Shown here in pieces: positions 12,403 to 37,534 of a stretch of DNA of 39,104 bases. A program made the translations under genes and the position numbers. The notes beneath the pieces are model-generated. The model searched no databases and was not told the origin of the DNA. It was given only the letters and a program-made list of their open reading frames with translations. Numbering within the stretch: the first letter of the stretch is position 1; every line of letters starts with the position of its first letter. Origin of the DNA: a virus; IMG/VR virus record IMGVR_UViG_3300046011_011360, positions 1 to 39,104 of that record, one strand, 5' to 3'.

Positions 12403-13680
12403 TTATACCTCATCAAGGTTAGTGAATCTGATTGTGATTGTATCGATATAGTTGACCGGTCTAATGGTTACATCGACTACGAACTTGTTATCTCTTACTA
12501 CAGAATCCGGATTGTTTGACCTATCACAAACAATTTTGTAGGTTTCAATACCATTTGTACTCTGTATTGTAGTAAAAATTGGTGTTATGGCATTCACGAA
12601 TGAAGTTCTAGTTCGTTCGTTGTTGATTTCAAAGAGATATTGATTTGCAATCGGTGTGATGTTCTTGATCAGATAAATCAGCAACCTTGAAATGTTTATA
12701 TTTCTGTATGGACTGGTATCTTCATCAAGAGTTCTATCCGAGAACAGATATGTTCCTTGTGTCGGTATTGTCGTTGCAAAGTTGATCTTCTTGGACAGTA
12801 AATGTGTTTGAACTGCATCGCTTGGTTGTTCCTTTAATCGAACAGTGTTCAATATCTGTCCTCTTCTCATCCCAGCAGGAGAAACCCAGGGATAGCGATC
12901 ATTGTCTACGCGAGCAAGACAACCGGCTGCATCTGCCATCAAAGGAGTCGATACCAAGGTAGTAGTGTCGTTCGGGTCTATTCCCGAGTGTTGTTTACTT
13001 CCATAAATTGCCATTCCATACTTGCCAAGGCTTGCACCTCTTGGTTCCATCAATCCTGCTGTCTGACCAAGAAAAGTGTTTCCAGGAACAGGTTCACCGA
13101 AACCACTTAGGCTTCCACTCACCCCGACGATACCAAAGCAATCATTTCCTCTACCCGCAACCAATTCGCGGACAATTGTGGCTTGAGTGATGCCATGGTC
13201 AAGAGCAAAAATAACATCAATGTCGTTCAGGACTGATTTGTCCAGAAGGGGGGTGTTTGTACTATTGAAACCTGTATATCCACCTGCAACCAAACAACTT
13301 CCACCATATGTCAAATAATTATGAATTGACCACCAATGTGTCGCTAGGTTGCCATTTGCACCCAGGAAGCAACCAGAATCACCTTTGGCTCTACAAATTG
13401 GAAGGGTATTTGACGGATTGGGGCTTAAAACTTGATCTTCACCCGAAACTCCGGCAAATTTACTAACATATCTTTTTACCCAGTCGCTTGCATCAGAGAC
13501 TCTAAAATAGCCATCAGATAACTCGCTTCCTATTGCAAATTCGCTAAAAATAGTAAGAGTTGAACCTGATTCACCAGAATAAGTGTGACCATAAACCGCT
13601 GCTATTGAATTTGAGAGATCTTCACTAAAGGAAGGAACAAGATTGTTGCCCAATAATTCAACTATAATTTTGGAAGACAT
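12403..13680 (-). CDS. 18: Contractile tail sheath protein gp18 (short form)
   Basis: 425 residues, much shorter than T4 gp18 (659), so the protruding variable domains of T4 sheath are missing or reduced. Recognisable sheath features include FSEDLSNSIAAVYGHTYSGE near the start, DIDVIFALDHG, PLMADAAGCLARVDNDRYPW followed by SPAGMRRGQI (the conserved YPWxSPAG region of the sheath family), SDRTLDEDTSPYRNINISRL and the C-terminal RPVNYIDTITIRFTN. It polymerises around the tube and contracts at infection. A late-type box and AAAGGAG precede the start. Confidence 0.93.
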   Translation of the reverse strand: MSSKIIVELLGNNLVPSFSEDLSNSIAAVYGHTYSGESGSTLTIFSEFAIGSELSDGYFRVSDASDWVKRYVSKFAGVSGEDQVLSPNPSNTLPICRAKGDSGCFLGANGNLATHWWSIHNYLTYGGSCLVAGGYTGFNSTNTPLLDKSVLNDIDVIFALDHGITQATIVRELVAGRGNDCFGIVGVSGSLSGFGEPVPGNTFLGQTAGLMEPRGASLGKYGMAIYGSKQHSGIDPNDTTTLVSTPLMADAAGCLARVDNDRYPWVSPAGMRRGQILNTVRLKEQPSDAVQTHLLSKKINFATTIPTQGTYLFSDRTLDEDTSPYRNINISRLLIYLIKNITPIANQYLFEINNERTRTSFVNAITPIFTTIQSTNGIETYKIVCDRSNNPDSVVRDNKFVVDVTIRPVNYIDTITIRFTNLDEV

Positions 13681-15831: not shown

Positions 15832-16518
15832 TTACTCCTGAATTGTTATATTGATATTTCCGCCGGTAACAGTAAGATTGTCTATGGTAAATGCAAACGA
15901 TTGAATTACATTTGGTGTTTCTTCTACAGGACCAAAAACATATGATTTTGCTGTAATAGTATATGTGTTGAGCAACAATCTTCTTTCTTCGAATGAGCCT
16001 TCAGTATCCTCAAATTGAGTCATTGCATCTAAAATAAACGGAACATTCACAGATTCGTATGATTTATTGAAATTTATGGTTTGGACCAATTCCGGTGCAA
16101 AATTTGGAAGTATTTGTTCCATTATTTGAAGATTTTCATCTATGCTTCTGCAAAAAGAAGTCAACTCGAAAACAAAATTATAAGGAACTATTTTATTTAC
16201 CGTGTAAATTTTATTATCAGACGGATCTCTTACCCTGCGTTCATTTATTTTATTCAGTTTTCTTGCGGTGTCGTATTCGACGGTTTTGATCGAGAAACAA
16301 AGTCTAGGCAAGTCTATTTGAACTCTTGTATTTTCGGTTATGGTCCCGGGTTCTCGAATTCTTCTATAGAACTTTTCTTTTGGACTGTATGTCAAAGGAA
16401 TTCTCAGGCGTGTCGTAGAATTATCATCTTTGGTCTTTGCTATGTAAACCTCATTGAAAAGATTTCCAAATGCCACTACCAATTTTCTTACCGACTCATT
16501 ATAATATTGTCCGAACAT
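15832..16518 (-). CDS. 15: Tail terminator / sheath stabiliser gp15
   Basis: 228 residues (T4 gp15 272). The start MFGQYYNESVRKLVVAFGNL corresponds to T4 MFGYFYNSSFRRYATLMGDL, then RIPLTYSPKEKFYRR (T4: RVPITYASKEHFMMK), LPRLCFSIK, FELTSFCRSIDENLQIMEQI and LPNFAPE (T4: LPYFQPH). gp15 caps the finished tail and binds the neck. The start and the gp14 stop share TAATG. Confidence 0.95.
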   Translation of the reverse strand: MFGQYYNESVRKLVVAFGNLFNEVYIAKTKDDNSTTRLRIPLTYSPKEKFYRRIREPGTITENTRVQIDLPRLCFSIKTVEYDTARKLNKINERRVRDPSDNKIYTVNKIVPYNFVFELTSFCRSIDENLQIMEQILPNFAPELVQTINFNKSYESVNVPFILDAMTQFEDTEGSFEERRLLLNTYTITAKSYVFGPVEETPNVIQSFAFTIDNLTVTGGNINITIQE

Positions 16519-17468
16519 TATGGTGTTCCTTCTGAGAATGGATCTGTTTCACAATAATTTATGATGTTATCTTTTTTAGCCTCAAGAGCAGTAATGTCAT
16601 TATCTCCGAAATTCTCGCCCATAAGAGAGTTATATGGTATAAGGGTATTTGATGCTGTGATTCCGCTAATGTATTGTTTGGCACCGGATGATTCGCCATA
16701 TAGAATATATGTTGCTCCGGTGACACCAAAAGCATCCTTTGTCGTCACATAAGCCGCAGAGATAGCCGTGGTTCCAGAAATGCCGTTATATTGAACCAAT
16801 ACTCCAGTCGATATCGCAGATCCGGTTATATCACCAAGCGATTCCGAATTTTCGAGATATTGTTTGACTGTTTCTCCTTCATAGAAACCATAATATGTAA
16901 TCCCAGAAATTCTTTTGACATAAAGTAATTTTGGAATTGAGTGTCTTTCTTCTTCGATGATATCGATCTCGGTGACTCCGGTATCCATCTTGGAATGATC
17001 GTAAGTGAAAAGTTCACAGGTTATCTTGTATGTGTAATTTTTTCCATGAAAGTAAAATGGAACTTCGTGTTCCACGAAGTTTATCTCAAAAAGAGAATTC
17101 GAGAGAGGCATGAATATTAAATCACCTTCTCTGGGTCTTTTTATGTCTGTCCTGATCGAGGTCACTTCCTGAGCAAATCTTTTTTGTGACATTATCAGTG
17201 TTATTCTGTCCTTGACCTGCAATCCAAATTTTGATATGAGATCACCCGCACCCTCGAATCCATTCACGGATTCTATGTACATCTCAATCGGAAATGCATC
17301 TTGAAATTTATACCATTTTCCCTCACCAAAAAGTTTATCTTCTTTTATCATTTCACGGGGAACATATGTCATGTCTTGACCAAACATTTTTATCTGTTCG
17401 ATCGTCATTTTTTCTAGGAGTTGCTGTTCTCCCGGATGTTTTTGATTGAAAAATGGATTTGTTGCCAT
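16518..17468 (-). CDS. 14: Neck protein gp14
   Basis: 316 residues (T4 gp14 256). FGQDMTYVPREMIKEDKLFG, GFEGAGDLISKFGLQVKDRI and PREGDLIFMPLSNSLFEINF match the T4 gp14 segments YYVPREYVSPDLIFGE, FSNFGMQVQDEVTL and GDLIYFPMDNSLFEINW. The C-terminus EALEAKKDN... ends in DPFSEGTP, like the T4 NPFDN tail. An extra region of about 60 residues (200-265, Gly/Ser/Thr-rich) is inserted relative to T4. gp14 forms the head-tail connector with gp13. Confidence 0.94.
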   Translation of the reverse strand: MATNPFFNQKHPGEQQLLEKMTIEQIKMFGQDMTYVPREMIKEDKLFGEGKWYKFQDAFPIEMYIESVNGFEGAGDLISKFGLQVKDRITLIMSQKRFAQEVTSIRTDIKRPREGDLIFMPLSNSLFEINFVEHEVPFYFHGKNYTYKITCELFTYDHSKMDTGVTEIDIIEEERHSIPKLLYVKRISGITYYGFYEGETVKQYLENSESLGDITGSAISTGVLVQYNGISGTTAISAAYVTTKDAFGVTGATYILYGESSGAKQYISGITASNTLIPYNSLMGENFGDNDITALEAKKDNIINYCETDPFSEGTP

Positions 17469-17471
17469 TCA

Positions 17472-18287
17472 TCAGCCCATCTGGAAGGTCGGTGGACCTT
17501 CGAACGCGGTATAAATTTCAGCTTCTATCTTGTCTATTTCGTTTTGTGCTTCTTGATACATGGCTGCTCCACGAAGAGTACCGCCACCGGGCAATGGGGT
17601 GTTTTCATATTTTGACAAATTTATGCCCCATTGTCTCTTTATTAATTGAACAAGATATTTCTTGAGTATACGATCATTGTATATTTCAGTGTAAGTATCC
17701 GGATCGAGTGCTAAATATGCTTCAAACATCAATGCTTGTCCGGGCTTCAGATCAGTTGACCAATCGGTATTGATTGAAATTCTGTTTGATGATTTGGTGA
17801 ACTGAAATGACTTCTCGGGTGAGAAGTATTGATTCATCAATGTGATGTATCTCATTGCATTGTCGTAATTCGCAATGGGAAGATCTTGTGTTCCATACAG
17901 ACCTCTGTTTATCTGAAAATAATCAGACAAAGCCCATTGATACTTGATATTAAACATATTATTCGATGAGCTTATCGGGTCATATTGGAATATTCTTACA
18001 ATCGATACTATATCCTGTCCGGTAGGACGATCTCCTGTGACTCCACTGGGTGGTCCTATATTGTCTGAAAAAATATACTTTCTTGCCTGATCTTCCTCAG
18101 TAACTTTGTATGGCAAATATCCGATCACAACACCGTCAAAATGACGCTCTGCAAACAATTGCAGAGCATCATCCAGACGATCAGATGCCTGTTGCCAATC
18201 AACATTGACATCTATTACTGGTTTTCCCAGAGCCCTGAATGCATATTCGATTAGTTGATCTCTTGTTTGTATTCTATTATCCGGCAT
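17472..18287 (-). CDS. 13: Neck protein gp13
   Basis: 271 residues (T4 gp13 309). The N-terminal RDQLIEYAFRALGKPVIDVN and DDALQLFAERHFDG are conserved in gp13 homologues, as are KYIFSDNIG, IVRIFQYDPISSSNNMFNIK, and the C-terminal YLVQLIKRQWGINLSKYENT followed by LPGGGTLRG. It forms the head-tail connector under the portal. A late-type box lies just upstream. It starts the block gp13-gp23 that runs without interruption to 5480. Confidence 0.94.
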   Translation of the reverse strand: MPDNRIQTRDQLIEYAFRALGKPVIDVNVDWQQASDRLDDALQLFAERHFDGVVIGYLPYKVTEEDQARKYIFSDNIGPPSGVTGDRPTGQDIVSIVRIFQYDPISSSNNMFNIKYQWALSDYFQINRGLYGTQDLPIANYDNAMRYITLMNQYFSPEKSFQFTKSSNRISINTDWSTDLKPGQALMFEAYLALDPDTYTEIYNDRILKKYLVQLIKRQWGINLSKYENTPLPGGGTLRGAAMYQEAQNEIDKIEAEIYTAFEGPPTFQMG

Positions 18288-18314: not shown

Positions 18315-18905
18315 TTATTCTTGGTTTTTTGGAAGCTCTTCGGTCTGTATGGGCATTTCAGGAAGAGTTACTTGAACAGATGCCACATCAGCCAATGACA
18401 TGTTCTCGATAAAATGTTTTCTGGTTATTGGCGGAACAGATTCATGTTCCTCAGCTTCAGTGTAATTACTGAAACCAGGCATTCCGAGAGGACAATGCAA
18501 TTTTGGATAATCCAACTTGGAATATTCTTCCCCATTGGCTAACAACCAAGTCATCTTTTTGTCGCCACACCCGCAAGCACCACAATAGTATTGTCCTTCT
18601 TGGACTTCACTTTTCTTCAAATGTTCACATGGAGGGAGGATTCCGCCTGAGTGTTTGTTGCCGAAACATCCCAATACCCGGAGTTGTTTTTCTGCTTTGT
18701 TGACTTTGTTGTCGCTGATTCCCCGGGATGCTATTGATGTTGCGAAACTTTGAATCATTGTTAATTTTTTTTTTAGTCCGCCATCAACTGGTTCAGCATT
18801 TCTAAATTCTTGTTGCTGCGACTGATCGCTCTGTTCCGTAACAGGGGAAGCTGGTGTCGGAGGAGCGTTTTTCTTACCACAACCACAACCTTTGTTTTCT
18901 GACAT
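18315..18905 (-). CDS. Cysteine-rich, probable metal-binding phage protein with CGCGK N-terminus
   Basis: 196 residues, no named function known to me. Cys7 and Cys9 sit in an N-terminal CGCGK. A central cluster has CEHLKKS, YYCGACGCGDKKMTWL and KLDYPKLHCPLGMPGFSNY (about residues 97-147), spaced like a zinc- or iron-sulphur-binding site. Residues 11-50 are low-complexity Pro/Gln/Ser. It lies between the DUF1566-like gene and gp13, suggesting a virion or assembly role. GAGGTATAA precedes the start, and TGA of the upstream gene is part of the same string. Metal binding is inferred from cysteine spacing only. Confidence 0.7.
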   Translation of the reverse strand: MSENKGCGCGKKNAPPTPASPVTEQSDQSQQQEFRNAEPVDGGLKKKLTMIQSFATSIASRGISDNKVNKAEKQLRVLGCFGNKHSGGILPPCEHLKKSEVQEGQYYCGACGCGDKKMTWLLANGEEYSKLDYPKLHCPLGMPGFSNYTEAEEHESVPPITRKHFIENMSLADVASVQVTLPEMPIQTEELPKNQE

Positions 18906-18914
18906 GATTATACC

Positions 18915-19544
18915 TCAAATAATGTATACTGGAACTTTTCTTACAAGTCTTACTGGCATTTGCTTGGTGTCTGAAACCAAGAAAGTATCACCATATGTAG
19001 GCTCATCAAATGATTGTGCCAATATCAATGATACCTTTTTTTCTATATTTTTGCTTGAATTTTGCACAATATATGTGGAAGAAACATACTCTTTTTCTTT
19101 CATTCCATAAAACCTAAAACCTAAATCAAAATTTTGTGGCAAATTTTTTGCTATGAAAGCCAACTCGTCGGTACTGGGAACATACCAATCTCTATATCCT
19201 CCAGGAGCATACAGATTTAATTGTTTCATTTGATTTTGATCATATTGGCTTTTATTGAAATAACCATCATAAGATGAAGTATTGACTGATACTGGTTCTT
19301 GTAAAGGATTTGTTATAAAGTTTATGTCTTTTGGTGCTAAAATTAAGACCCAAGCGTATTTTGATTCGCCTGTTCCTTCTCCATCTGTTCTGTAGTCTTC
19401 TGCTTTTCCTGTGGAAGGATTTCCAAAAACTATAGAACCCGATGGTGTTACAGGAGGACCGGGATTGAAAACCCCAATATTTACACCACCTCTATAAAAT
19501 GTCAAAGGAACTGGAACAGAATTTGGATATATTGGACTCTCCAT
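18915..19544 (-). CDS. DUF1566-like tail-tip or fibre protein (C-type-lectin-like)
   Basis: 209 residues from ATG 19544, whose TAATG overlaps the stop of the upstream gene and has GGAG just before it; a TTG at 19565 in frame is less likely. GGYRDWYVPSTDELAFIAKN (about residues 116-135) and the closing MPVRLVRKV match the DUF1566 pattern (GYxDWRxPSxxEL ... VRxVR) found in bacterial and phage surface proteins with a C-type-lectin-like fold. Residues 20-60 are Gly/Pro-rich. Its place after the cysteine-rich fibre genes suggests a receptor-binding or decorating role; this is inference. Confidence 0.7.
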   Translation of the reverse strand: MESPIYPNSVPVPLTFYRGGVNIGVFNPGPPVTPSGSIVFGNPSTGKAEDYRTDGEGTGESKYAWVLILAPKDINFITNPLQEPVSVNTSSYDGYFNKSQYDQNQMKQLNLYAPGGYRDWYVPSTDELAFIAKNLPQNFDLGFRFYGMKEKEYVSSTYIVQNSSKNIEKKVSLILAQSFDEPTYGDTFLVSDTKQMPVRLVRKVPVYII

Positions 19545-20281
19545 TACGGTTCTCCGTTCGTGCAATTTCTTTCACATTCGGAGCAAGAAAATTCTTTGTC
19601 ACCGAGAAGATAAAAAGACCCATTCAATTTATCACAATCGTAGAAGCTTATTGTTTCTATGCATCTGCAAGGAATTCCCTGAATGCAGCAATTTCCGTAT
19701 GTGTCTTTTTCAATTACACCTGTAAGGAATGTTGTGTTGTTTGGTTTTTTATTCTCAATTATTGACGGACATTCAGGATTTGTTTGACAAGTTTCACCGG
19801 TCTCATAGAAAATAGGAGTATATCCTTTGACGGTCAATTTTGAACATTCTTCTTCGGTATCGACAGAGTAACACCTGGATTCGACAGATCCATCGATTAA
19901 AGTATATCCGCAGCATTTTTTCTTCAATCTTATATCTTTGTCGCCAGTTATGCAAAATTTTTCAGAGTCTAGATCCTTGCAAGGAGAGCTGGACCATATT
20001 CCATTCAGATCCTCGCATTGTGTTTTTTCTATCCCATCTGACATTCCTGAATAGAAAGATGCACAGCAACATCCTGTTTTTCCTTTTGGAAAACATGAAT
20101 TTTTACAGTCAGGACTCATTGAAAAATACCCATTCAATGCATTACAGGCACCAAATGTAGATTCAAAAGGAACAGCACCATCTTCACTTGACCCAGTACA
20201 GCAACAACCACTCACCCCAGGAAAAAGGTAAGTGGAGTAATTTATCGGAGATTGAATTCTTGATCTGAAGTGAATTGACAT
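19544..20281 (-). CDS. Cysteine-rich repeat protein of the tail-fibre cassette
   Basis: 245 residues made almost only of four cysteine-rich repeats of 40-55 residues. Each begins with a CC or CCC pair (GCCCTG, GCCCAS, KCCGY, NCCIQG), has an x-C-x-x-L-N-G element (ACNALNGYF, QCEDLNGIW, DCDKLNGSF) and closes with one to three cysteines. The same repeat ends the three collagen-like paralogues upstream. No collagen segment, signal peptide or membrane segment is seen. The start has a TATAAATA late promoter 16 bases upstream but no Shine-Dalgarno sequence. I infer a tail-fibre accessory or disulphide/metal-stabilised adhesin; function unproven. Confidence 0.75.
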   Translation of the reverse strand: MSIHFRSRIQSPINYSTYLFPGVSGCCCTGSSEDGAVPFESTFGACNALNGYFSMSPDCKNSCFPKGKTGCCCASFYSGMSDGIEKTQCEDLNGIWSSSPCKDLDSEKFCITGDKDIRLKKKCCGYTLIDGSVESRCYSVDTEEECSKLTVKGYTPIFYETGETCQTNPECPSIIENKKPNNTTFLTGVIEKDTYGNCCIQGIPCRCIETISFYDCDKLNGSFYLLGDKEFSCSECERNCTNGEP

Positions 20282-20296
20282 GGTAATAACTTAAAA

Positions 20297-20304
20297 TATT
20301 TATA
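20297..20304 (-). promoter_or_regulatory. Consensus late promoter (TATAAATA)
   Basis: An exact T4 late-promoter octamer on the minus strand, 16 bases before the ATG at 20281. It overlaps the last codon and stop of the gene ending at 20300. The expected message leader is about 10 bases with no ribosome-binding site. Confidence 0.7.
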
Positions 20305-22009
20305 GGGCTTCTATATTATCATCTTTAAATTCTATACATGGGTCTGGATTTCCCCCACAGATTATATCGTATCTTTGATCATTTATAGCAACATTAACAA
20401 TTTGATCTTTTGAAAGATCTGTTTCTTGAATTTCTTTTTCCTTTATTTTTCCACAGGATACATCGCATGTGGAATTTGGATAAAAAATTCCAAAACAATT
20501 TTTTTCATCAATATTATCAACACAGGGTTTATCTGGATAGCAGCAAGATCCAAGAGTTACGGGAACATCAAATCCACAGTCAATGGTATTACATGTTGTA
20601 TTCTTTCCGAAGAATATTCCACCAAGTTTAGAGCATTCTGTTGGCGTAACATTCTGACATGTTTTTGTTTCAGACACACAGCAGGCACCAGAAATTTCCA
20701 CTCTTACGCCATCCTTGCATTCACAGTCGCAACAATTTCCAACAAATCCTATGCCGCCATAATATTCCTCACACACTTTAAAGGTAACATCCGAAATGCA
20801 AGTAACTCCCGTACAGCAAGATGTCACTGGTTTTGTTGAATCGTAACATTGTCTTACTGTGTTGTCATCATCGGAGGTATATTCAATTCCATCACATGCA
20901 ATACCAAGATAATATTTGCCACCAAAATATTCGCATTCACTTTCAGAAACACCAGAGACACACTGTCCATTAGAACAACATATCGCAGTGGCTCCGCATG
21001 TAGAACTGCAAGCAGTGAACAAATTAAAAGATCCATTGTTTTTTTTACACCAGTCTTCGGTCACATACTCAGAACAAACTAGAGTTTTTCCCTGAGAGTA
21101 GCAACAAGATCCAACTCCGTCAAATCCAGAACACAATGTCGCACCATAACCACGCTCTATTATGGTGGCATACCACGATTTTCCTTTATTGGGTGTCATC
21201 AAGTTCATGATGTTTGTGCCACAACCAAAATTTGAGGAATACGGTGTATCTTCAAAATAAACATTTGTCGGGAATTGTGAGAATCCATTTCCTTCTACAA
21301 AGAAAGTTACAGATAACAATTCATTATCATTGTAAAGAGAAGAATCCAGAGTAAATCCGGAAAGACCAAGTGGTGTATTGATCTTATAGATCGCTCCTGT
21401 AGTCAATCCCAAAATAAGATCATTTGATCCAGATGGAACATCTATTACATTGCCTCGTATATTTGCATAGACTTGTGATGATGTTTGAGTTATTCCTGAG
21501 ACATTGCTGAAAGAAAACTCTCCATATGTTTTTCCATATTTGATTCTGGTTGAATCTATCACTGAATCTGTTTTTGAGAACAATACCGTCGAGTCTGTTT
21601 GATTGCCGGATAGTGTTACACCATACGATACATCAATCGGAGTTACCAGTATGGAATCTCCGGTGATTTCTGCTCTTAGATTTCCTATGAAAGAAATTCC
21701 CCTCAAAGTCAAAGTATAGCCAGATGCAGACGAGAAAAATGACAATCCTGCTGAGTAATTGTTTCCAAAAATTGTGCCTGTATATCCAGTTGCACCTTGA
21801 GTTCCATATAGTATGAATGTCTTGTCACCTGACACAAGTTTTATCAAATTCTGGTCAGCAATGATTGTTGAAACATAATTTGCTGTCTTTCCTTTAGGAC
21901 CGGTAAATCCTGTTCCGGTTCCTGTTGGTCCGATTGGACCCACAGGCCCTATTGGACCCGTGGGACCAGTTGTTCCTATTATGATTGTTCTTATTGCACT
22001 GGATCCCAT
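20300..22009 (-). CDS. Collagen-like, cysteine-rich tail fibre protein 1
   Basis: 569 residues in three parts. (1) Residues about 13-36: collagen-type Gly-x-y repeats (GPTGPIGPVGPIGPTG, then GFTGPKGK). (2) Residues 40-290: a beta-rich region with GYTLTLRGISFIGNLRAEIT, shared with the next two genes. (3) Residues 300-520: five cysteine-rich repeats beginning SCC/ICC/ACC and containing EC..LGG elements such as TECSKLGGIFFGKNTTC. The short C-terminal segment is acidic. Gly-x-y triplets drive trimerisation in many phage fibres. GAGG precedes the start. Fibre identity is inferred from architecture and from the neighbouring baseplate and fibre genes. Confidence 0.75.
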   Translation of the reverse strand: MGSSAIRTIIIGTTGPTGPIGPVGPIGPTGTGTGFTGPKGKTANYVSTIIADQNLIKLVSGDKTFILYGTQGATGYTGTIFGNNYSAGLSFFSSASGYTLTLRGISFIGNLRAEITGDSILVTPIDVSYGVTLSGNQTDSTVLFSKTDSVIDSTRIKYGKTYGEFSFSNVSGITQTSSQVYANIRGNVIDVPSGSNDLILGLTTGAIYKINTPLGLSGFTLDSSLYNDNELLSVTFFVEGNGFSQFPTNVYFEDTPYSSNFGCGTNIMNLMTPNKGKSWYATIIERGYGATLCSGFDGVGSCCYSQGKTLVCSEYVTEDWCKKNNGSFNLFTACSSTCGATAICCSNGQCVSGVSESECEYFGGKYYLGIACDGIEYTSDDDNTVRQCYDSTKPVTSCCTGVTCISDVTFKVCEEYYGGIGFVGNCCDCECKDGVRVEISGACCVSETKTCQNVTPTECSKLGGIFFGKNTTCNTIDCGFDVPVTLGSCCYPDKPCVDNIDEKNCFGIFYPNSTCDVSCGKIKEKEIQETDLSKDQIVNVAINDQRYDIICGGNPDPCIEFKDDNIEAL

Positions 22010-22029
22010 TTATGCCTCAAATTATGTAG

Positions 22030-23409
22030 TTAGGGGGTACAACAAGTGGTAGATGAACATGTTACCCCAGTACCCTTATAAACTCCACCAAGGAATGCAC
22101 ATTCGTTTTTCGTCAGATAAACGCAAGATCCATTTTGCAAACAACATGCTCCGGTATTTTCTACCGATCGACAATTCACGCTTTCGCAATTTCCGATTAT
22201 TGCTTTTCCTACACACAATGCCGGATCGGTCAATTCAGTTCCTATTCCATCCTTGCAGCAACAATAAACTGTGGGTCCAAGAACTGGTTGCGGTTCGATG
22301 CAGGGTATATCACAATTATAAGACACCCCACAAACTTTATACTCACAGAAAGAACCCTTCATTTGAAGACACTTGAGTCTTGTCGCATTTACGCATCTTC
22401 CGTTGACGCAGCATGCTCTGCGTAAGTAACAATCATATGTGCTTTGTCTAGTATAACAATTTTCAAGGCTCCATCTTCCAGAAACAGAATCACAGTAAGT
22501 TTTTGAAACATAATCTATGCAATTTCTTCCATCGGAATAACCGTTGCAAGAATCACATTCAAAACAACAAGAGCCTATTTTCTCTGTCAATTTGATCGTC
22601 TTGTTGTAGGGACCTATCTCCAAAAAAGATATCGTGGAAAAAGTAGCACCCGAAGATCCGGCGGAATCAAAATAAGATGCTCTGTACTTGAGATATGGAT
22701 ACAATACATTTGAATTGCCTTCAAATGACAATCCAGTTATTCCATAGACAGCAGAATCTATAGTCATCGTCAATCCGGTATGATATGCGTTTGCACTAGT
22801 TCCAATTGAATAATTGAAATTGTTTGAATCCAGAATATCCCTGCCGACATTTGAAATTATTGTCAATTCTGAATAAGTTGTTCCAGAATACGAAATATTC
22901 TTGTACGCAGTTTTGTCTGCGGAATCGAGGTAATACAAGCTTTGGGTCTGACTGTATTTTACATACAGAAGTTTATTTTCATCAAAAGACCCGGTATATC
23001 CTGTATTTTCTTGAATGAATATGGTATTTGCGGATATAGATCCAGAAAGACCAACTGCGAAAGTTACTCCTCTAAAAAATAAAGTATACCCCGATACGCC
23101 TGTAGAATTAACCAGTGGAGTTATACCGGATCCAACATAACTTATACCAGGAGGAGACGCACTTGAAGCATTGCCGGTGTTTCCTTTTATTCCTGTTATT
23201 CCAATTGTTGTTTTATCAAAAAGAGTAAAGGTTACGCCGTCTATTATTGAATTGTATGTTGCTCCTATTATGCCTATGCCTCTAGGACCAAGAGGTCCAG
23301 TCGCAAAGTTTCCGGTAAATCCCGTTGCTCCAGTGGGACCAGTTGGACCGACTCCTCCGGTAACGGCGATAATCACTGATATTACTCTACTCAGTCCTTT
23401 AGATGACAT
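22030..23409 (-). CDS. Collagen-like, cysteine-rich tail fibre protein 2
   Basis: 459 residues, paralogue of the flanking genes. Collagen-like VGPTGPTGATGFTG is followed by GPLGPRGIG in residues 18-52. The middle has GYTLFFRGVTFAVGLSGSIS, matching protein 1. Four cysteine-rich repeats make up residues about 275-459; the last, ACCLQNGSCVYLTKNECAFL plus GGVYKGTGVTC, is the clearest example of the repeat. It ends exactly at a CC pair (SSTTCCTP). GGAG lies 8 bases before the ATG; the start overlaps the preceding gene by 11 bases. Confidence 0.75.
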   Translation of the reverse strand: MSSKGLSRVISVIIAVTGGVGPTGPTGATGFTGNFATGPLGPRGIGIIGATYNSIIDGVTFTLFDKTTIGITGIKGNTGNASSASPPGISYVGSGITPLVNSTGVSGYTLFFRGVTFAVGLSGSISANTIFIQENTGYTGSFDENKLLYVKYSQTQSLYYLDSADKTAYKNISYSGTTYSELTIISNVGRDILDSNNFNYSIGTSANAYHTGLTMTIDSAVYGITGLSFEGNSNVLYPYLKYRASYFDSAGSSGATFSTISFLEIGPYNKTIKLTEKIGSCCFECDSCNGYSDGRNCIDYVSKTYCDSVSGRWSLENCYTRQSTYDCYLRRACCVNGRCVNATRLKCLQMKGSFCEYKVCGVSYNCDIPCIEPQPVLGPTVYCCCKDGIGTELTDPALCVGKAIIGNCESVNCRSVENTGACCLQNGSCVYLTKNECAFLGGVYKGTGVTCSSTTCCTP

Positions 23410-24802
23410 TTTCGGCTCCTACAGGACAATTTGAGGATGAACAGGTTATTCCATTTCCAAGATATGTAAAACTTGTAGCATTATATGTTTTACCTCTTGG
23501 ATTGTACACCATTCCAGAGATGCAATTTATACAAGTAATACCATTTAGGCAGAGGCTGCTGTTTTCTGCCTTGACATCGGTGAAGCTCATACAGCATCCT
23601 CCTGTCTTCTGGCAAGGATTAGAGCCACAAGTCAGACCTGCATGCCAGAAGGCACTTGCACCCCTATTAAGGCAATCGGTGATGCTCTCGTAAATACAAG
23701 TTCCTCCTGGAGTTCCATCTGCAATGCAGCATGCACCAAATGGAACGGAGATTCCCTGTATTACGGATTTTTGACAATCAAAGAATACTGATGTGTCACT
23801 CATCCATGCGACACTGCCATACCAAGTATATCCACCCACATTGAAGAAATGATAGACATTTGTTCCAGTAGGACCACAAAAACAGGGTTCAACGCCAAAT
23901 GGCCACATTATATCACCTGTAGCGGAAGTTAGTGAGAATCTTTTTTGACCGAGAGCCGATGCTGTTGGACCGTTGCTGGGATTCATCAAAACAACTGTGA
24001 TTGCTGATGCAGAATTTTTATCTTCTGTTTCACCAAGCACTACCAATGTTGTATTGTTTTTCATATCGGCAACAAAAACTTTGTTTCTCACTTCGACATC
24101 GATTGAATTTTTCGACACACAATCAGGATTTATATAAACAATCTTACATTCTGCGGAAGCAGAACTTCCTTTTGAATCGATATAATTGAATGTTCCACCG
24201 GTGATGTAGTTGCACAAAACTCCGGTTGATGAAGTTGCTCCTGAATAACCAAGACCTCTTGCTTTTTCAAATATATTTCTGGTGGATATGGATGATGATT
24301 CGCCATATCTTGATTTTTGTATAGAAGTTACAGCCGATCCACTATAACCAATAAAAGTGTTAACTGTTTCGGATCCAGTAATTCCCAAAGTAAATCCACT
24401 GCTCAAATTAATGTAAGAAAACTCTAGGCTATCACCACATAAACCAACCTGAAAATCGGCTCTTCCCGAAAGAGATGTAATTCCTCTTATTTTTCTGAAA
24501 TTTAATGTCCGGGTCTCACCTGCATATATTGAGAGACCGTTTCCTACGGTTATGCCTGCAATGAGAACAGTGTTTCCTGTACTTCCCTTGAAATTTGCAG
24601 AAGTGATGTATGTCGCACCAGTATCAAATGTAGTTAATAGTTTTCCACCACATAAACCCATTGAACTTATTGATGAACCTGTAGGACCAGTTGAACCATA
24701 TCCTGTAGGTCCTGTTGGTCCTCTTTCTCCTGTTGATCCAACGGGACCGGGTATGCCATAAGAAAAAGAATATTTCGATGATGGATAGAAACTGGAACCC
24801 AT
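23399..24802 (-). CDS. Collagen-like, cysteine-rich tail fibre protein 3
   Basis: 467 residues. Collagen-like GIPGPVGSTGERGPTGPTGY and GSTGPTGS fill residues 16-44. The beta-rich middle contains TRTLNFRKIRGITSLSGRAD, aligned with the GYTL.. strand pair of proteins 1 and 2. A region with YTWYGSVAWMSDTSVFFDC may form an additional domain. The C-terminus has two longer cysteine-rich repeats (GACCIADGTPGGTC..., GGCCMSF...NGITCSSSNC). The start and the upstream stop share TAATG. It is the most diverged of the three paralogues. Confidence 0.73.
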   Translation of the reverse strand: MGSSFYPSSKYSFSYGIPGPVGSTGERGPTGPTGYGSTGPTGSSISSMGLCGGKLLTTFDTGATYITSANFKGSTGNTVLIAGITVGNGLSIYAGETRTLNFRKIRGITSLSGRADFQVGLCGDSLEFSYINLSSGFTLGITGSETVNTFIGYSGSAVTSIQKSRYGESSSISTRNIFEKARGLGYSGATSSTGVLCNYITGGTFNYIDSKGSSASAECKIVYINPDCVSKNSIDVEVRNKVFVADMKNNTTLVVLGETEDKNSASAITVVLMNPSNGPTASALGQKRFSLTSATGDIMWPFGVEPCFCGPTGTNVYHFFNVGGYTWYGSVAWMSDTSVFFDCQKSVIQGISVPFGACCIADGTPGGTCIYESITDCLNRGASAFWHAGLTCGSNPCQKTGGCCMSFTDVKAENSSLCLNGITCINCISGMVYNPRGKTYNATSFTYLGNGITCSSSNCPVGAENVI

Positions 24803-25982: not shown

Positions 25983-28211
25983 TTAATAGATTGTCGTATC
26001 GGCATCAGCCACATAATGGAAACCTACAAAATCAAACCAACAATAACTTGTGTATGGGACAAAATTAAAGTCTGCTTGTGTTTTTCTCACATTTGATATT
26101 GGATTCACTGAGAAATTATTTCCATTCCATCTTTGGACTGGAGCTGCACCAAAAGCAATTGCGCAATTTTTAATTCTTGTAGCGAACAGTGTGTTATCTT
26201 TGCTGTCATACCACAAGGTGTCCGTTGGGCTAGCAGTGTCTTTGAATGATATTTCGCCAGTATTCCCCTTCAGTGAATAAATTGTCACTTCTGGAGTTCT
26301 AGTCATTCTATACTTCATCGTATGAGAGAGAATAACACTGTTTGGGGATAATATTCCCAAATTACCCCTGTTTGTTTCTATCGTATCAGTACCGGTTTTT
26401 TCATCTGGTCCATAACTTCTCTGATAAAATTCTGCTGCTCTGGAATAATCTTCAGCAAAACTTACCATTGTCGGTGTTGATGCTGTCGAACCATCTTCCA
26501 ATATGAATTGAGCAAATTCATATGTTCTTCCATTATTCCTCAATCCAATACCCATCAAGAAATATGAAACAGCAGCTGAACTTGCAGTTGGACCCACAAA
26601 GGTTGCACTGTATCTACTCCAATTGCTAGCTATGGCAGAAGTATGTGTTGCATGTGTGATACCATTGATATATCCTGAAGTGCTGGTGTATTGTGTTGAA
26701 TTTATGGTGAACGATCCAGTTCCACCTATGGTTCTTGCATAGAAAGAGAATGTTAATTGTTTGTTTGCAATTGTTCTTGGATCTTCTATTACATTGTAGA
26801 AGTTTGATACCAGACTTGAATCTGTAGTGTTTTTTATCAATGAAATGTAATAATTTGGATATCCCAAAACATCTGTTTGTGTTTTGGGAGAGAAAGATTT
26901 TCTTTCTCCGGTGAATCCTCTTTCACCGCTTGCACCCCACATTATCCATCTGTCCGCAATGTATTTTTTGTTGGGGGTTGTGCTTGCCGTGATTCCGTAT
27001 GCAGCAGAGACACCCAATCCTCTTTGCCATAAATTCAAGCTACCATTGATTAAGTAATTTTGGAATCTAGTTCCACCTGCGCCAGATATTGTGGTAAAAA
27101 TTTGTGAGGGAGAATCGATGTTCAATACGAGATTATTCCCGGAAACATTTCCAACAACAATGACATCAGTTGTTGGTTTTTTCTGAGTGAATGTTCCAGT
27201 CGGCTCCAGATAAACAACACCAGAATCCAGTGATCCCCATCCATCCAAGCTTGAAATGTTGTTTATCACAGATCCGCTTGTGTTTACCTTTAATGTAATT
27301 TTTGCTCCAACTGTACTGTCGTATGCCCCAACATATTCACTCACTATTCCAATAATTTTTTCGACAGGTGTCAAACTAGTTGCTTTGAAATATAAAGGAG
27401 TTCCAGAAATAGAGGTATATGCTGTTGAATATGATGGTTTTTCAATATCAACAGCAATCAATGCCCCAGGTCTCATTTCGAAAGATGTCTCTGCTTCACC
27501 TTTTGATTCTACTTCTATGAGCACGCTAGAATTAAACAAATAAGATCCAGAAGCTCCACACGAACCCTGAATGTACTGGCCTCTATATGGGAGTATATTT
27601 CCCTCAATCGTTCCCATGCCAACAAGGATTGGTTTTGAAACCAGTCCAACTGTAGTGGGTTCCGTTCTGGTAATTCCACCAGCAATGACCGGATCAACGA
27701 AATAGACACAGCCAGAAGTCAATCCACCTGTTATCAAGTTTGAAGCAAGAGTTGATCCAGAGACTTTACCAGCGACCGCAACTATCGTTCTTGTGGCATT
27801 TACATCTATTGCTATTCCAAGGACTTCCGCGTTTGAAGGGGTGTCTGCTTTTGCAAGAGTCAATCCTCCTGTGCTGGTGAGCCTAACTACTTTTCCTGCG
27901 GTGACTCCCCTTGAAATGTAGTTTCCGGTAATTTCTACAGCCAATCCAGATAATCTACTACTACCCAGAGAAACCGATCCTTCAAAAGCAACATTTCCAG
28001 AGAATGTTATAGCTTTTGTAATTTTATTTGAAATTTCAAATGTATATCCACCGTCAGACTGGTATGAGAAGGTTATTCCATCACCAGCAAGAGGTCTGGA
28101 TATAAGAGCGTTATTCAGCTTTCCCAATACAGAATCATTATATTGATTGAACCAATCCCTGAAAGAAGCCGTTACACCAAGAGAAGTTATACCGTTTTGA
28201 AATATGGGCAT
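25983..28211 (-). CDS. Large tail fibre protein with carbohydrate-binding-like domain
   Basis: 742 residues. Order: N-terminal attachment region (1-95, FQNGITSLGVTASFRDWFNQ), beta-module copy 1 (about 100-215), copy 2 (about 245-365), then a jelly-roll-like domain (383-590) starting FQNYLINGSLNLWQRGLG with YIADRWIMWG and KQLTFSFYARTIGGTGSF. NGxxxxWQRG...ADRW is a common signature of carbohydrate-binding-like modules in phage fibres. The C-terminal 150 residues (SFAEDYSRAAEFYQRSYG onward) are the conserved end of the same family. It is the most likely receptor-binding fibre in the window. AGGAAT precedes the start. Confidence 0.78.
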   Translation of the reverse strand: MPIFQNGITSLGVTASFRDWFNQYNDSVLGKLNNALISRPLAGDGITFSYQSDGGYTFEISNKITKAITFSGNVAFEGSVSLGSSRLSGLAVEITGNYISRGVTAGKVVRLTSTGGLTLAKADTPSNAEVLGIAIDVNATRTIVAVAGKVSGSTLASNLITGGLTSGCVYFVDPVIAGGITRTEPTTVGLVSKPILVGMGTIEGNILPYRGQYIQGSCGASGSYLFNSSVLIEVESKGEAETSFEMRPGALIAVDIEKPSYSTAYTSISGTPLYFKATSLTPVEKIIGIVSEYVGAYDSTVGAKITLKVNTSGSVINNISSLDGWGSLDSGVVYLEPTGTFTQKKPTTDVIVVGNVSGNNLVLNIDSPSQIFTTISGAGGTRFQNYLINGSLNLWQRGLGVSAAYGITASTTPNKKYIADRWIMWGASGERGFTGERKSFSPKTQTDVLGYPNYYISLIKNTTDSSLVSNFYNVIEDPRTIANKQLTFSFYARTIGGTGSFTINSTQYTSTSGYINGITHATHTSAIASNWSRYSATFVGPTASSAAVSYFLMGIGLRNNGRTYEFAQFILEDGSTASTPTMVSFAEDYSRAAEFYQRSYGPDEKTGTDTIETNRGNLGILSPNSVILSHTMKYRMTRTPEVTIYSLKGNTGEISFKDTASPTDTLWYDSKDNTLFATRIKNCAIAFGAAPVQRWNGNNFSVNPISNVRKTQADFNFVPYTSYCWFDFVGFHYVADADTTIY

Positions 28212-33926: not shown

Positions 33927-34280
33927 TTAAGGGGTTTTCTTTGCTTTATTTGTTGCCATGGCGTATGCTACAGCCTTACCTTTTTTTTCGCCATATTTTT
34001 TCTTTAATTTATTCAAGACATCCTTCTTTTTCATGTCTTTCATAAATTTTTCCTTTTGCATCTTGTCTTTTGGAGTCAGAGTTTTTTCCTGAAGATTCTC
34101 ATTTTCCCATGAGACTGTTATGCCTTCATTGAAACTAACCTTAAATGGTTTATTTTTTTGAAAATCCAAAAGCTCAACGATGCTCAATGCGTCTGTTTTG
34201 CTACCAAAGCATTCCGACACACCCATCATTTTTCTGTATTTTTTGGTTTTACCGCAACCACAGTCTTTTTTCTTTTTCAT
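33927..34280 (-). CDS. Small lysine-rich protein with CGCGK N-terminus
   Basis: 117 residues. MKKKKDCGCGKTKKYRKMMG starts the protein; Cys7 and Cys9 in CGCGK are at the same positions as in the protein at 18315-18905. The C-terminus LNKLKKKYGEKKGKAVAYAM resembles the short helical motif (YG..KGK.VaYA.A...A) at the end of many T4-like phage small proteins. Overall very basic. Overlaps the 1085-residue gene by 4 bases (ATGA). No function known; nucleic-acid or metal binding is a guess from composition. Confidence 0.68.
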   Translation of the reverse strand: MKKKKDCGCGKTKKYRKMMGVSECFGSKTDALSIVELLDFQKNKPFKVSFNEGITVSWENENLQEKTLTPKDKMQKEKFMKDMKKKDVLNKLKKKYGEKKGKAVAYAMATNKAKKTP

Positions 34281-37200
34281 CTGCTTTTTCCTTTATTCTT
34301 TAATAGAAGTTTTAATAGTTTTGGATCAATCATCTGCCATTGTCCGGGTGTTTGTTTCAACCACTTTGCGGTCAATTCCCCCGAACCTTCAAGTCCGGCA
34401 CCCCACATCTCAGATATTTTTTTCTTTGAATGACCATTGTCTGCCCGGTTTTTATTTATGGATCTGACTCTCAAATTAGAATCGCCGTTATTGAGAGCAT
34501 TTCCGTCCTTGTGGTCTATATCTTTTCCTTTGATTGCATTCTTACCTAATTTCTTTGCCATTTTTCTTCTGGCTAATACTCTTTTGCTTCTTTTTGCCCT
34601 CTGTTCCGGTTTTCCATGGAAAAGACGATACTCTCTCTTGTAGTTTCTTTTACCTTCCAACAAGGAACTGATTTCGTTTTTAAAGATCTCAACAGCATCT
34701 TCATATTCCAAACCATCGTTTAACATCTCAATAACCGTTTCATTTATGTTATCATAACTGTTGAATAATTCCTCTGCCAATTCAACATCAAAAACCGGAA
34801 TTGCATATTCCCTGCCGTTTACGGTAACGACATTTTTTATTGGATTTTGCATGGATGATAACTTCATGCCTAATTCGGTATAATCCAAAACATCAAAATC
34901 TATATCTTGAATGAGACCCAGTTGAGCTAATACAGGAAGAATATTTTCTAGCGTAAACTCGAATTCTCCACCGTCATTTTGAGAAAACCCCGCAAATTGA
35001 GTATCGGATCCAAGCGGAGGCATGAATTCTGATGATGGTGGGGACTCAACACTTACTGTTTGATCAGGGGGTAAAAATGTGTATTCAAATAGATTATCGA
35101 GTTCCCTGTCGGCTAAAGGATCATATGATGCTATCAGGTTCTGTGGAGAAAAAAAACCTTGTGGACCATTCCTGCCCATCTCGACTCTTGAACTGAATGG
35201 GGAGATCGTTCTAGATCCGTCGCTTCCCCACGATTTTGCTCTGCTGTTCATCTTGTGGCTTGCAGCAAATTTCATGAATTTGGGGTCTCTTATTGCGTCA
35301 GCAAAATTTGTCGGGAACATCATCGATCCCACTGCTTCGCCTCTTTCGTCCGCAAAGAAAATACCCTGAGCAACACCTAGAGAGTTTTTGTCAAATTTTC
35401 CTTTACCAGTTCCAAATGCATAAACAAACGCCGCCTGCACAAACCTATTTTTCATCAATTCCGCAATTTTTTCCTTAATTTCTTTTACTATTGGGTTACT
35501 ACTGTTGAAAAATTCCTGTGCTGCAACAAGATTTGACTGATTTCGTGCATCATAACTTGTTGCTCTTCCCCTCGACATTTTTTGAATTTTACTTTTACCA
35601 AAATTAGTATTCAAAATTTTGAATGCATTTTGGCCATTCATGGAATTTTTTAGCCTATTGAAATCTTGAATAAGCTCCATGAGTTCTGGCGGTATTTCAT
35701 TTAATACCCCACCCAACATTTCTTTGACATCCTCAATGACAGCAATTGTTTCTGTCAATGCAGACGATGCAAGTTGGGATTTTCCTGCTTTATGAGATAT
35801 ACCGAATGTCATAGCCAAAAGTTCTTCAGGAAGCTCTTCTTCAATGACTTCCTCTTTCAGATATTTTGAAAACTTTTGATAATCTTCTTTTGAGAGAACA
35901 CCATCTTGTCGTTTTGCTTTTAGATATTCAAGTAAAGCTTGAGCATTCTCAGGGGAAAAATCTTCAAAGCTCTTTGATTTCAAGAACGCCACGAAGTTTT
36001 TTAATTCTTCCTTTGGGAGCCCCATATCTGTTTTCTGGGAACTCAAGAACTTTATTAATTCATCGCCCAATTTTTCGCTGTTTTTTATATCTTCTTCACT
36101 TTTTAGTTTTTCTTTACCGGCAAAATTCAACTTGCTCAGATCTGATCTTATTTTTTGACCCGAGATATACTTGGCAAATATGTCAAGATATTCTTTGGGG
36201 AATACCACATAATCTGCTTTCGATGTGGTATCTCTAGCACCCATTTTTTCGTATAATTTACTCATCTTCATCATTCCTCGCATCATTCCAATGCGGAGAG
36301 TGACTAGATCTTCATCTTTATAACTGGATAAAACAGGATTTGATCCCTTAGCTAACGAGAGCATGGCTGCTCTTGATCTTCTTCCAGCTTCAGTCATCCA
36401 TGGATTTGAATCGACTTCTCTTTGAATTGCTTCAAGTTCACGACCATCCTTGCCAAACCAACCCAGTTCTTGCAATCTTTCGGTTGTTTCCGGATCATCG
36501 ACATATTGCGCAAGTTGAGGTGCATTTTCATTTTGATCATATGGCAATACTGTTGGTCCTGTTTGTCTTTCTGGTGGCAAAACAGGTGGAACCTTTGACT
36601 TTTGTTGCTGATCGTCTTTCTTTTGTTGTTTTCTTTGTGAGCCTCTTGATCTTTGTTCCCTCTTTCTGGGTTCCTCTTCATCTTTCTTTATGCCTAATAC
36701 TTCCTCGACTGGTTTGTTGTTGAATATCACATTATATGTTTCGGTTCTCTCGAATTTTCCTTCTTTACCGGCAATATAATGCATCAGATCGCCAGGAGAT
36801 TTTATCTCTCCGGGTTTCTTGTTCTTCAAAATTTTATATCCAGTCTTGAAACTTGCCAAGGAATCTCTACTTGCAATTTTTACTTTGCCATCCTTTGTTT
36901 TTATCACGACAACAGGACTGAGATCACCTTTTTTGATTTTTTCTTCATTGGTTAATTTTTTACCGCCTGTTTTTGGTGAACCTTTTGGACCGGAAGCACT
37001 GGGTTGATTAGAAGATGATTTTTTATTCTCTTCAAATATGAAAGATTCATTTGTTTGGTGACTGTTCTTTCTGTCATCTTCCCTTTGAAATCTTTTTTTC
37101 AATCTAGCCTGTTTTTTGGGGTCGCCGGTGGGATTCCTCATGGAAGCCCTTTCACCTGCCGATGATTTTGTTCCTAGACTGAATGCGGTCTGTGAACCGC

Positions 37201-37534
37201 CGAATAGTTTTTCAGCGAGTAGTTTGCCAAAATCAACAGTAACATCCTCTTGTCTTATAAAGTTTCTCGCTGCGTCCATTTTTTCCTCTCTGTCTTGTGC
37301 TGCTTGTATGTCCCTTGCGTTCTGAACGGCTGTACGAGCCATTATCGCGTGTTTTGATCTCATCGCCCTTGAGATGTACTTCATCGGTGTCTTCCCGAGC
37401 ATCTGCTTGAGCATGAAACGGGTCCTTCTCCATCTTTTTATTCCCTTGATCCATGCTTGTCTGGTCAGGGGACCTTCAGAAAGAAAAGTCTCAAATTCAT
37501 CTTCATTGAACCATTCTGGTAGATATTTTTCCAT
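34277..37534 (-). CDS. Very large phage protein with C-terminal HNH nuclease domain
   Basis: 1085 residues, the longest gene of the window. Residues 1-90 are basic and helical (KRWRRTRFMLKQMLGKTPMK); 100-400 are charged, Lys/Gln/Ser-rich and probably disordered; 400-900 look folded (LAMTFGISHKAGKSQLASSA; FVQAAFVYAFGTGKGKFDKN; MKFAASHKMNSRAKSWGSDG). Residues about 961-1035 form an HNH domain: YRLFHGKPEQRAKRSKR, then KDIDHKDGNALNNGDSNLRV and SINKNRADNG, with Asp1007-His1008 likely catalytic. Such HNH ends occur on several T4-like marine phage proteins. It may be injected or head-internal; role unknown. Late-type box and double terminator precede it. Confidence 0.75.
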   Translation of the reverse strand: MEKYLPEWFNEDEFETFLSEGPLTRQAWIKGIKRWRRTRFMLKQMLGKTPMKYISRAMRSKHAIMARTAVQNARDIQAAQDREEKMDAARNFIRQEDVTVDFGKLLAEKLFGGSQTAFSLGTKSSAGERASMRNPTGDPKKQARLKKRFQREDDRKNSHQTNESFIFEENKKSSSNQPSASGPKGSPKTGGKKLTNEEKIKKGDLSPVVVIKTKDGKVKIASRDSLASFKTGYKILKNKKPGEIKSPGDLMHYIAGKEGKFERTETYNVIFNNKPVEEVLGIKKDEEEPRKREQRSRGSQRKQQKKDDQQQKSKVPPVLPPERQTGPTVLPYDQNENAPQLAQYVDDPETTERLQELGWFGKDGRELEAIQREVDSNPWMTEAGRRSRAAMLSLAKGSNPVLSSYKDEDLVTLRIGMMRGMMKMSKLYEKMGARDTTSKADYVVFPKEYLDIFAKYISGQKIRSDLSKLNFAGKEKLKSEEDIKNSEKLGDELIKFLSSQKTDMGLPKEELKNFVAFLKSKSFEDFSPENAQALLEYLKAKRQDGVLSKEDYQKFSKYLKEEVIEEELPEELLAMTFGISHKAGKSQLASSALTETIAVIEDVKEMLGGVLNEIPPELMELIQDFNRLKNSMNGQNAFKILNTNFGKSKIQKMSRGRATSYDARNQSNLVAAQEFFNSSNPIVKEIKEKIAELMKNRFVQAAFVYAFGTGKGKFDKNSLGVAQGIFFADERGEAVGSMMFPTNFADAIRDPKFMKFAASHKMNSRAKSWGSDGSRTISPFSSRVEMGRNGPQGFFSPQNLIASYDPLADRELDNLFEYTFLPPDQTVSVESPPSSEFMPPLGSDTQFAGFSQNDGGEFEFTLENILPVLAQLGLIQDIDFDVLDYTELGMKLSSMQNPIKNVVTVNGREYAIPVFDVELAEELFNSYDNINETVIEMLNDGLEYEDAVEIFKNEISSLLEGKRNYKREYRLFHGKPEQRAKRSKRVLARRKMAKKLGKNAIKGKDIDHKDGNALNNGDSNLRVRSINKNRADNGHSKKKISEMWGAGLEGSGELTAKWLKQTPGQWQMIDPKLLKLLLKNKGKSR

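Follow-up and report, generated by a model that had tools for sequence, protein, structure and literature searches.

Four adjacent minus-strand genes in a virus sequence from IMG/VR (record IMGVR_UViG_3300046011_011360; the whole analysed stretch of 39,104 bases is hereafter called the window) encode proteins carrying 15 cysteine-rich repeats, which are likely to be the same kind of module as a single segment of the iRhom homology domain (IRHD or IHD) of human iRhom1 and iRhom2. The repeat, for which no curated model was found in Pfam or NCBIfam, is probably of the disulfide type and occurs here among the fibre genes of a clade of uncultured phages; its nearest relatives are unnamed tandem repeats in secreted-looking proteins of Phycisphaerae and Zixibacteria. 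The open reading frames (ORFs) of the cassette, P1 to P4, occupy exactly positions 19544-24802, as a first-pass annotation made from the letters of the window had proposed, and its estimate of about fifteen repeats agrees with our hand-cut count of 2+4+5+4. We consider it reasonably probable that these are virion fibre or baseplate-appendage proteins of a T4-like myovirus, with distal modules held by disulfides. An unnamed repeat thereby gains a predicted fold and a testable bonding scheme, and a prokaryotic relative is offered for an animal domain.

P1 (23399-24802; 467 aa, 21 Cys) starts with a collagen-like stretch, followed by a middle beta region and two repeats (r1-r2, residues 355-462, positions 23417-23740). 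The same plan is found in P2 (22030-23409; 459 aa, 29 Cys), with four repeats (r1-r4, residues 278-459, positions 22033-22578), of which r4 (residues 419-459, positions 22033-22155) is the most canonical, and in P3 (20300-22009; 569 aa, 36 Cys), with five (r1-r5, residues 299-525, positions 20435-21115) and a C-terminal tail. P4 (19544-20281; 245 aa, 26 Cys or 10.6%) has no collagen stretch and consists of an FRSRI-type N-terminus followed by four degenerate repeats. The hand-cut repeats are 39-75 residues long and contain an even number of cysteines in 13 of 15 cases. Among the 39 minus-strand ORFs of the window, only P1-P4 exceed 4.1% cysteine.

The repeats were scored with a model built from GTDB genome sequences alone, and hence free of any letters of the window. 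This bacteria-only model gave 46.7 bits for P2, 38.7 for P3, 8.4 for P1 and -4.3 for P4. When each protein was shuffled 200 times by composition, the real score was never equalled for P1, P2 or P3 and was equalled three times for P4; when the cysteines were held fixed, none of the 200 shuffles of any of the four proteins equalled it. On the basis of these scores and shuffles, the repeats of P2 and P3 are clear and those of P1 and P4 degenerate, and chance composition was rejected as the source of the repeats in all proteins save P4. Individually, the model recognised r1 of P1 (12.2 bits), r2 and r4 of P2 (11.1 and 46.7 bits) and four of the five repeats of P3 (r4, 38.0 bits). No curated family of Pfam or NCBIfam lies above its cut-off over the repeats, and neither rhomboid nor any other Pfam family does so in P1-P4; phrog_33322 matches P4 weakly (E 0.22).

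The Gly-x-y runs comprise seven triplets in P1 (24695-24757), six and three in P2 (23272-23358) and seven and three in P3 (21884-21976). Within the first 100 aa, runs of 7, 6 and 7 triplets were equalled by 5, 34 and 2 of 10,000 shuffles, respectively, which bears out the earlier description of three genes with such a stretch and a fourth made of repeats only. The N-termini weakly match the tail fibre PHROGs 819, 366, 5073 and 6320, and P1-P3 resemble collagen-like phage tail fibres (these PHROGs and PF01391) in having a Gly-x-y stretch at the N-terminus and a further region behind it. They differ from such fibres in that their C-termini are cysteine-rich repeats and in that the Pfam Collagen model scores below its cut-off of 27.2 bits (P1 13.7, P3 9.9, P2 unlisted). 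A beta region common to all three proteins had also been proposed. It stands for P2 and P3 (blastp 2.5e-15 over the full length; hhalign of the beta part E 5e-6, probability 86, 76 columns) but is weak for P1, which by blastp reaches 0.002 (full length) and 2e-4 (beta part) against P3, 0.41 and 0.06 against P2, and by hhalign only probabilities of 14 and 6.

Profile searches with the repeat, a check that the first-pass annotation had itself suggested, matched two groups of relatives, the bacterial GACC repeats and the iRhom segment. For the former, a motif of planctomycete proteins was searched as DNA in GTDB genomes, and loci were picked by the pattern GACC(L/F)PDG. At least 118 genome stretches matched; among the 80 with listed titles, 61 name planctomycetes (mostly Phycisphaerae/-ales; counted by hand) and 3 Zixibacteria, some of the others being chance matches, as for Klebsiella and one Bacteroidales genome, in which no repeat was found. 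The phage profile (A2; 21 repeats, comprising the 8 more canonical of the 15 in the window and 13 from relatives) reported as many as 32 domains in a single protein of this kind when no per-domain cut-off was applied, and whole-genome counts at E <= 0.001 reached 56 and 61 repeats in two Phycisphaerae and 10 in a Zixibacterium. The spread is patchy: the repeat was detected in 3 of 59 genomes from the phylum to which the Phycisphaerae genome G005 belongs (itself counted; E <= 1e-5) and, within its class, in 6 of 41 (E <= 1e-8). None of the 60 genomes from the phylum of the Klebsiella genome contained it, though nothing rang there at all.

Of 326 bacterial domains, 278 fit the cysteine pattern and 198 of these were non-redundant; 75 were printed, with 40 in A4 and 57 in A5. 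This set leans towards canonical repeats, because its members were detected with the phage model in loci selected through the GACC(L/F)PDG pattern. Phage and bacterial repeats share the consensus GACCxxDGxCxxxTxxxCxxxGGxFxGxGxxCxxxxC, the spacing and the tandem arrangement, and hhalign of the phage against the bacteria-only profile gave a probability of 98.9 (E 2e-17). The dominant bacterial spacing, CC-x5-C-x7-C-x13-C-x4-C (125 of 278 repeats), is identical to that of P2 r4. Consensus and spacing are followed by P2 r4 and P3 r4 and far more weakly in P1 and P4. Two differences set the groups apart: no collagen-like stalk was noticed in the first 900 residues of the 12 bacterial proteins read, unlike in P1-P3, and export by a signal peptide, indicated commonly though not universally for the bacterial proteins, is seldom indicated for the viral ORFs. 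As to known families, phrog_7551 (unknown function) matches one repeat of the planctomycete protein L124 (E 1.1e-4), and DUF6799 falls in the repeat array of L131 (E 3.7e-4; 20.6 bits against a cut-off of 26.8). A search for phrog_7551 in 11 records found nothing, though no control rang either. Searched by tblastn, L124 had no match among phage isolates, where the low-complexity filter may hide such sequences; a single weak Streptomyces match among plasmids (E 8e-3) was taken as chance.

The link to the iRhoms comes from both sequence and fold. Against 177,635 PDB sequences, the phage profile found four chain sequences at E <= 5, all of them iRhom1 or iRhom2 (E 3e-4 to 0.012), while the bacteria-only profile found the iRhoms at E 0.014-0.042, the next match being at 2.7. 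One repeat (P2 r4) was modelled by AlphaFold2 from 66 phage and bacterial rows, with no iRhom rows and no templates; the model has a pLDDT of 89.4 and a beta-beta-alpha-beta order. Of 350,542 PDB chains searched by Foldseek with this model, three were returned at E <= 10, all iRhom (query TM 0.76-0.78, rmsd 1.7-1.8), and placement by VIA-align on those three chains covers iRhom1 596-639 and iRhom2 568-611. The sequence profile matches the same segment (571-606 in 8snl_B). The spacing of its cysteines, CC x5-6 C x7 C x13 C x4 C, is nearly identical to that of the phage repeat. The iRhom segments outscored all 2000 cysteine-fixed shuffles under each of three models; residues between the cysteines therefore matter as well. 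A search of BFVD with the repeat model gave a best E of 1.6.

The iRhom homology domain (PDB 9xy4, 9q7y, 8snl, 9o58) is thus the sole solved relative of the repeat found here, and a common fold is predicted for the two on the strength of the model. The phage proteins are not iRhoms: no rhomboid membrane domain is found in P1-P4, and in the iRhoms the segment belongs to a single domain, about 240 residues long, of an animal pseudoprotease that crosses the membrane seven times and regulates signalling, as opposed to tandem repeats of fibres. Three cryo-EM reports describe eight disulfides in the domain (PMC11248996, PMC12184519, PMC13277793), and a predicted model has all 16 of its cysteines paired (PMC10148629); a review calls the domain mysterious and unlike any known domain (PMC6451368). 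In iRhom1, a second, partial repeat-like stretch (ACC...C...C; 9xy4_A 102-122, 7.3 bits) lies earlier in the domain and hints at internal duplication.

Common descent of the phage repeat and the iRhom module is likely. Several values count against this link: the Foldseek E-values of 0.2-1.5 are modest, the VIA-align Z of 4.4-5.0 falls in a range where the tool warns of a mere common arrangement, and with the phage profile the best cysteine-fixed shuffle came close to iRhom2 (29.9 against 32.0 bits). The likeness is argued because the two routes agree, the E-values and Z being modest when taken alone. The rival to descent, which leaves the fibre assignment untouched, is convergence, that is, similar cysteine spacing on a common small fold. 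The small size of the domain (about 37 residues), profile E-values spanning 3e-4 to 0.04 and modest fold scores speak for it; the near identity of the spacing, the agreement of the residues between the cysteines in all three models and the fact that sequence and fold searches of the PDB indicate the same segment and nothing else above noise speak against it, so that we regard convergence as unlikely, if a serious contender. No description of the repeat in phages, or of a link between iRhoms and bacterial proteins, was recognised among the open-access papers searched.

The first-pass annotation had left open whether the cysteines bind metal or become oxidised. By analogy, disulfides are favoured over zinc or another metal: bacterial proteins whose starts resemble signal peptides carry this repeat too, and in the PDB both the sequence and the fold searches lead only to the disulfide-stapled iRhom domain. 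By a simple home-made rule, a signal-peptide-like start was scored in 67 of the 87 repeat ORFs from bacteria and in 134 of the 731 control ORFs taken from those loci. Among the viral repeat ORFs, a set that includes the same gene from overlapping loci, 3 of 35 scored. The low viral figure favours the opposite idea of small modules that bind zinc or another metal, fold inside the cytoplasm and remain reduced, as do the closely spaced extra cysteines of a few repeats in the window (P2 r1, P3 r3) and the CGxCGCGD cluster of an adjoining protein (see below). Cysteine conservation, reported below, cannot by itself separate the two, because cysteines are often well conserved, and this must be set against the disulfide assignment. 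The consensus, however, has a vicinal CC and six cysteines without CxxC pairs, which, with the bacterial proteins and the iRhom match, renders metal binding improbable. A match to a known, unrelated intracellular family, which the earlier annotation had named as potential counter-evidence, was not encountered; the matching families look extracellular or luminal.

The assignment to fibres is supported by gene neighbourhood and collagen-like starts. The T4-like genes of the window lie on the minus strand in the order helicase, major head protein, portal, tube, sheath, terminase, gp15, gp14, gp13, cassette and fibre/baseplate-wedge genes. Upstream, the cassette is flanked by genes for a tail fibre protein (25983-28211; phrog_4492, E 4.5e-22) and a baseplate-wedge protein (phrog_438); downstream follow the gp13-like neck protein (head-tail adaptor Ad2; 17472-18287, phrog_211), the gp14-like head closure protein Hc2 (16518-17468, phrog_460), which served with gp13 as synteny anchor, then gp15, terminase, sheath, tube, portal and capsid. 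The cassette thus sits between baseplate/fibre genes and gp13, where fibre cassettes of T4-like phages are expected.

A search with gp14 yielded 26 loci, one of them a 61,817-base contig with identical gp14 and P3; nine with under 2.5 kb before gp14 were excluded from the counts of cysteine-rich ORFs. Such an ORF precedes gp14 in 12 of the 12 relatives counted as closer (gp14 identity of 52% or more, at least 2.5 kb upstream), and the order of the cassette is syntenic in those relatives whose proteins were read, although recognisable repeats are missing from some cysteine-rich ORFs (e.g. L017 and the first ORF of L018). Between the window and its relatives, 89-100% of cysteines are kept, as against 31-64% of other residues: 20 of 21 in the P1 orthologues of loci L008 and L009, 25/28 to 26/29 in P2, 32/36 to 35/36 in P3 and 26/26 in all six relatives compared for P4. 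The ratio dN/dS is 0.08-0.40 where computable, with dS saturated. The cassette recurs in other contigs with a dN/dS well below 1, and an artefact of assembly or decaying remnants, to which the degenerate repeats of P1 and P4 might have pointed, is contradicted and practically out of the question.

Gain and loss of repeats, as inferred in the first-pass annotation, is seen in part. P3 is extended at its C-terminus in some relatives (from 569 to 901-959 aa), and P4 is enlarged (from 245 to 782-799 aa); the number stays at two in P1 (3 of 3 orthologues) and at four in P2 (5 of 5), some of the latter with extra CC pairs (window counted in both; L008 and L009 are near-duplicates). A recent expansion of repeats in P1 and P2 was rejected, the repeat order being stable. 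Far larger repeat ORFs occur elsewhere. L171 encodes 1884 aa with 187 Cys and a collagen-like start, upstream of a CGCGK gene, gp13 and gp14; L153 (5011-9282; 1420 aa, 170 Cys or 11.9%) and L162 (2138-8188; 2015 aa, 233 Cys or 11.6%) lie among baseplate-wedge and tail genes, on contig stretches without matches to gp13-gp15.

Some of the evidence weighs against the assignment to fibres. The cassette is not general, as none of five distant relatives with enough upstream DNA (gp14 42-45% identical) has a cysteine-rich ORF there. By tblastn against 50,697 phage records (E <= 0.01), P2, P3 and P4 had no isolate match (P1 was not searched); L171 had none either, with the filter caveat given for L124. 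P1 and P4 have degenerate repeats, and full-length P3 gives a poor model (pLDDT 50), with which a search of the PDB returned 68 matches, phage appendage and iRhom chains among them, but nothing at E <= 0.001. Methylophilales phage Melnitz-3, Pelagibacter phage HTVC008M and Prochlorococcus phage P-HM1 share the order gp13-gp23 with the window, but none of the 53 plus-strand ORFs of at least 180 codons in their regions is cysteine-rich, and the CGCGK gene is unmatched in them. At the place of the cassette, Melnitz carries 'tail fiber' genes directly before the neck protein gene, which speaks for a fibre role. In HTVC008M this place is taken by oxygenase genes and in P-HM1 by an unnamed ORF of 5.5 kb, again showing that the cassette is not general. 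As a separate observation, five annotated 2OG-Fe(II) oxygenase genes lie near gp13-gp16 in HTVC008M (L173, NC_020484 57442-63779), four of them at this place.

P1-P4 could be expressed without being virion fibres: they would then be factors that are released, or late proteins of another kind, whose genes only happen to lie in the structural region. The absence of a collagen stretch from P4 and the non-fibre genes of HTVC008M would fit. The weak matches of the N-termini to tail fibre PHROGs, the constant position ahead of the neck genes among closer relatives and the scarcity of signal-peptide-like starts argue against this, and we deem it quite improbable.

If P1-P4 are indeed fibre or appendage proteins, P1-P3 would probably trimerise through the collagen-like N-terminus and the beta region, their distal ends forming strings of small beta-beta-alpha-beta modules with three disulfide bonds each, and P4 may be a repeat-only partner. 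The module would be an extracellular disulfide module common to the Phycisphaerae tandem repeats and the core of the iRhom homology domain. Disulfides are unexpected in proteins made in a reducing cytoplasm. As the proteins carry no recognisable export signals, the modules may close after lysis; alternatively, a partner, for which the adjoining CGCGK protein is a candidate, may hold them apart. Once closed, the modules would provide protease-resistant, rigid ends that contact the host. The data show the repeat itself, its synteny in closer relatives, the conservation of its cysteines and the sequence family that it shares, whereas virion location, trimers, disulfides in the phage proteins, time of oxidation and host contact are all points that we infer. 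Thioredoxin and glutaredoxin were found in none of 11 partial virus records, which does not favour the proposed oxidation; a search for Erv1/Alr carries no weight, its control having stayed silent.

The candidate helper of the cysteine-rich fibre proteins is a small conserved protein encoded next to gp13 (18315-18905, minus strand). Most members of its family start with CGCGK, and the motif CGxCGCGD is invariant. Relatives occur in at least 575 viral-contig stretches, so that the protein marks a very large uncultured group, whose fibre/baseplate-region ORFs hold from tens to over 200 cysteines; among phage isolates it had no match. Of the best 80 of these at least 575 stretches, 46 with at least 3 kb upstream were counted and 34 left out. 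The CGCGK gene lies downstream of a cysteine-rich ORF in 44 of the 46 and of an ORF recognised by the repeat models in 33, several loci being near-duplicates. The loci are related to one another, and association does not equal function. Slightly short of an even chance, in our estimate, is the combined proposition that the iRhom core, called unprecedented when solved, derives from or is akin to a Phycisphaerae disulfide repeat, which would also form the business end of the collagen-like fibres of this clade, with the CGCGK protein as a dedicated partner, either holding the fibres in reduced form or steering their oxidation. CGCGK also stands in the N-terminal part of another small ORF (33927-34280; MKKKKDCGCGK...), far from the fibre cassette.

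Between the CGCGK gene and P4, whose end it overlaps, lies a cysteine-free gene (18915-19565, minus strand) with a weak Lcl_C-like match at its C-terminus (PF07603, E 7e-5; 23.5 bits against a cut-off of 34.9, the best relative reaching 26.5). Homologues occupy the same place in relatives, and in L018 (2701-4347) a P4-like repeat start and an Lcl_C-like part are fused in one ORF. Elsewhere in the window, the sheath-like protein (12403-13680) is short, at 425 aa, and its best-matching stretches are confined to the C-terminal half. A 1085-aa ORF (34277-37534) contains no cysteine at all and matches PHROGs, of unknown function and of the HNH endonuclease type, at its C-terminal end only. A scan of the window for tRNA found none. 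Promoter-like sites are about as frequent as expected by chance (35 against 37.3), and terminator-like sites exceed chance (15 against 7.6).

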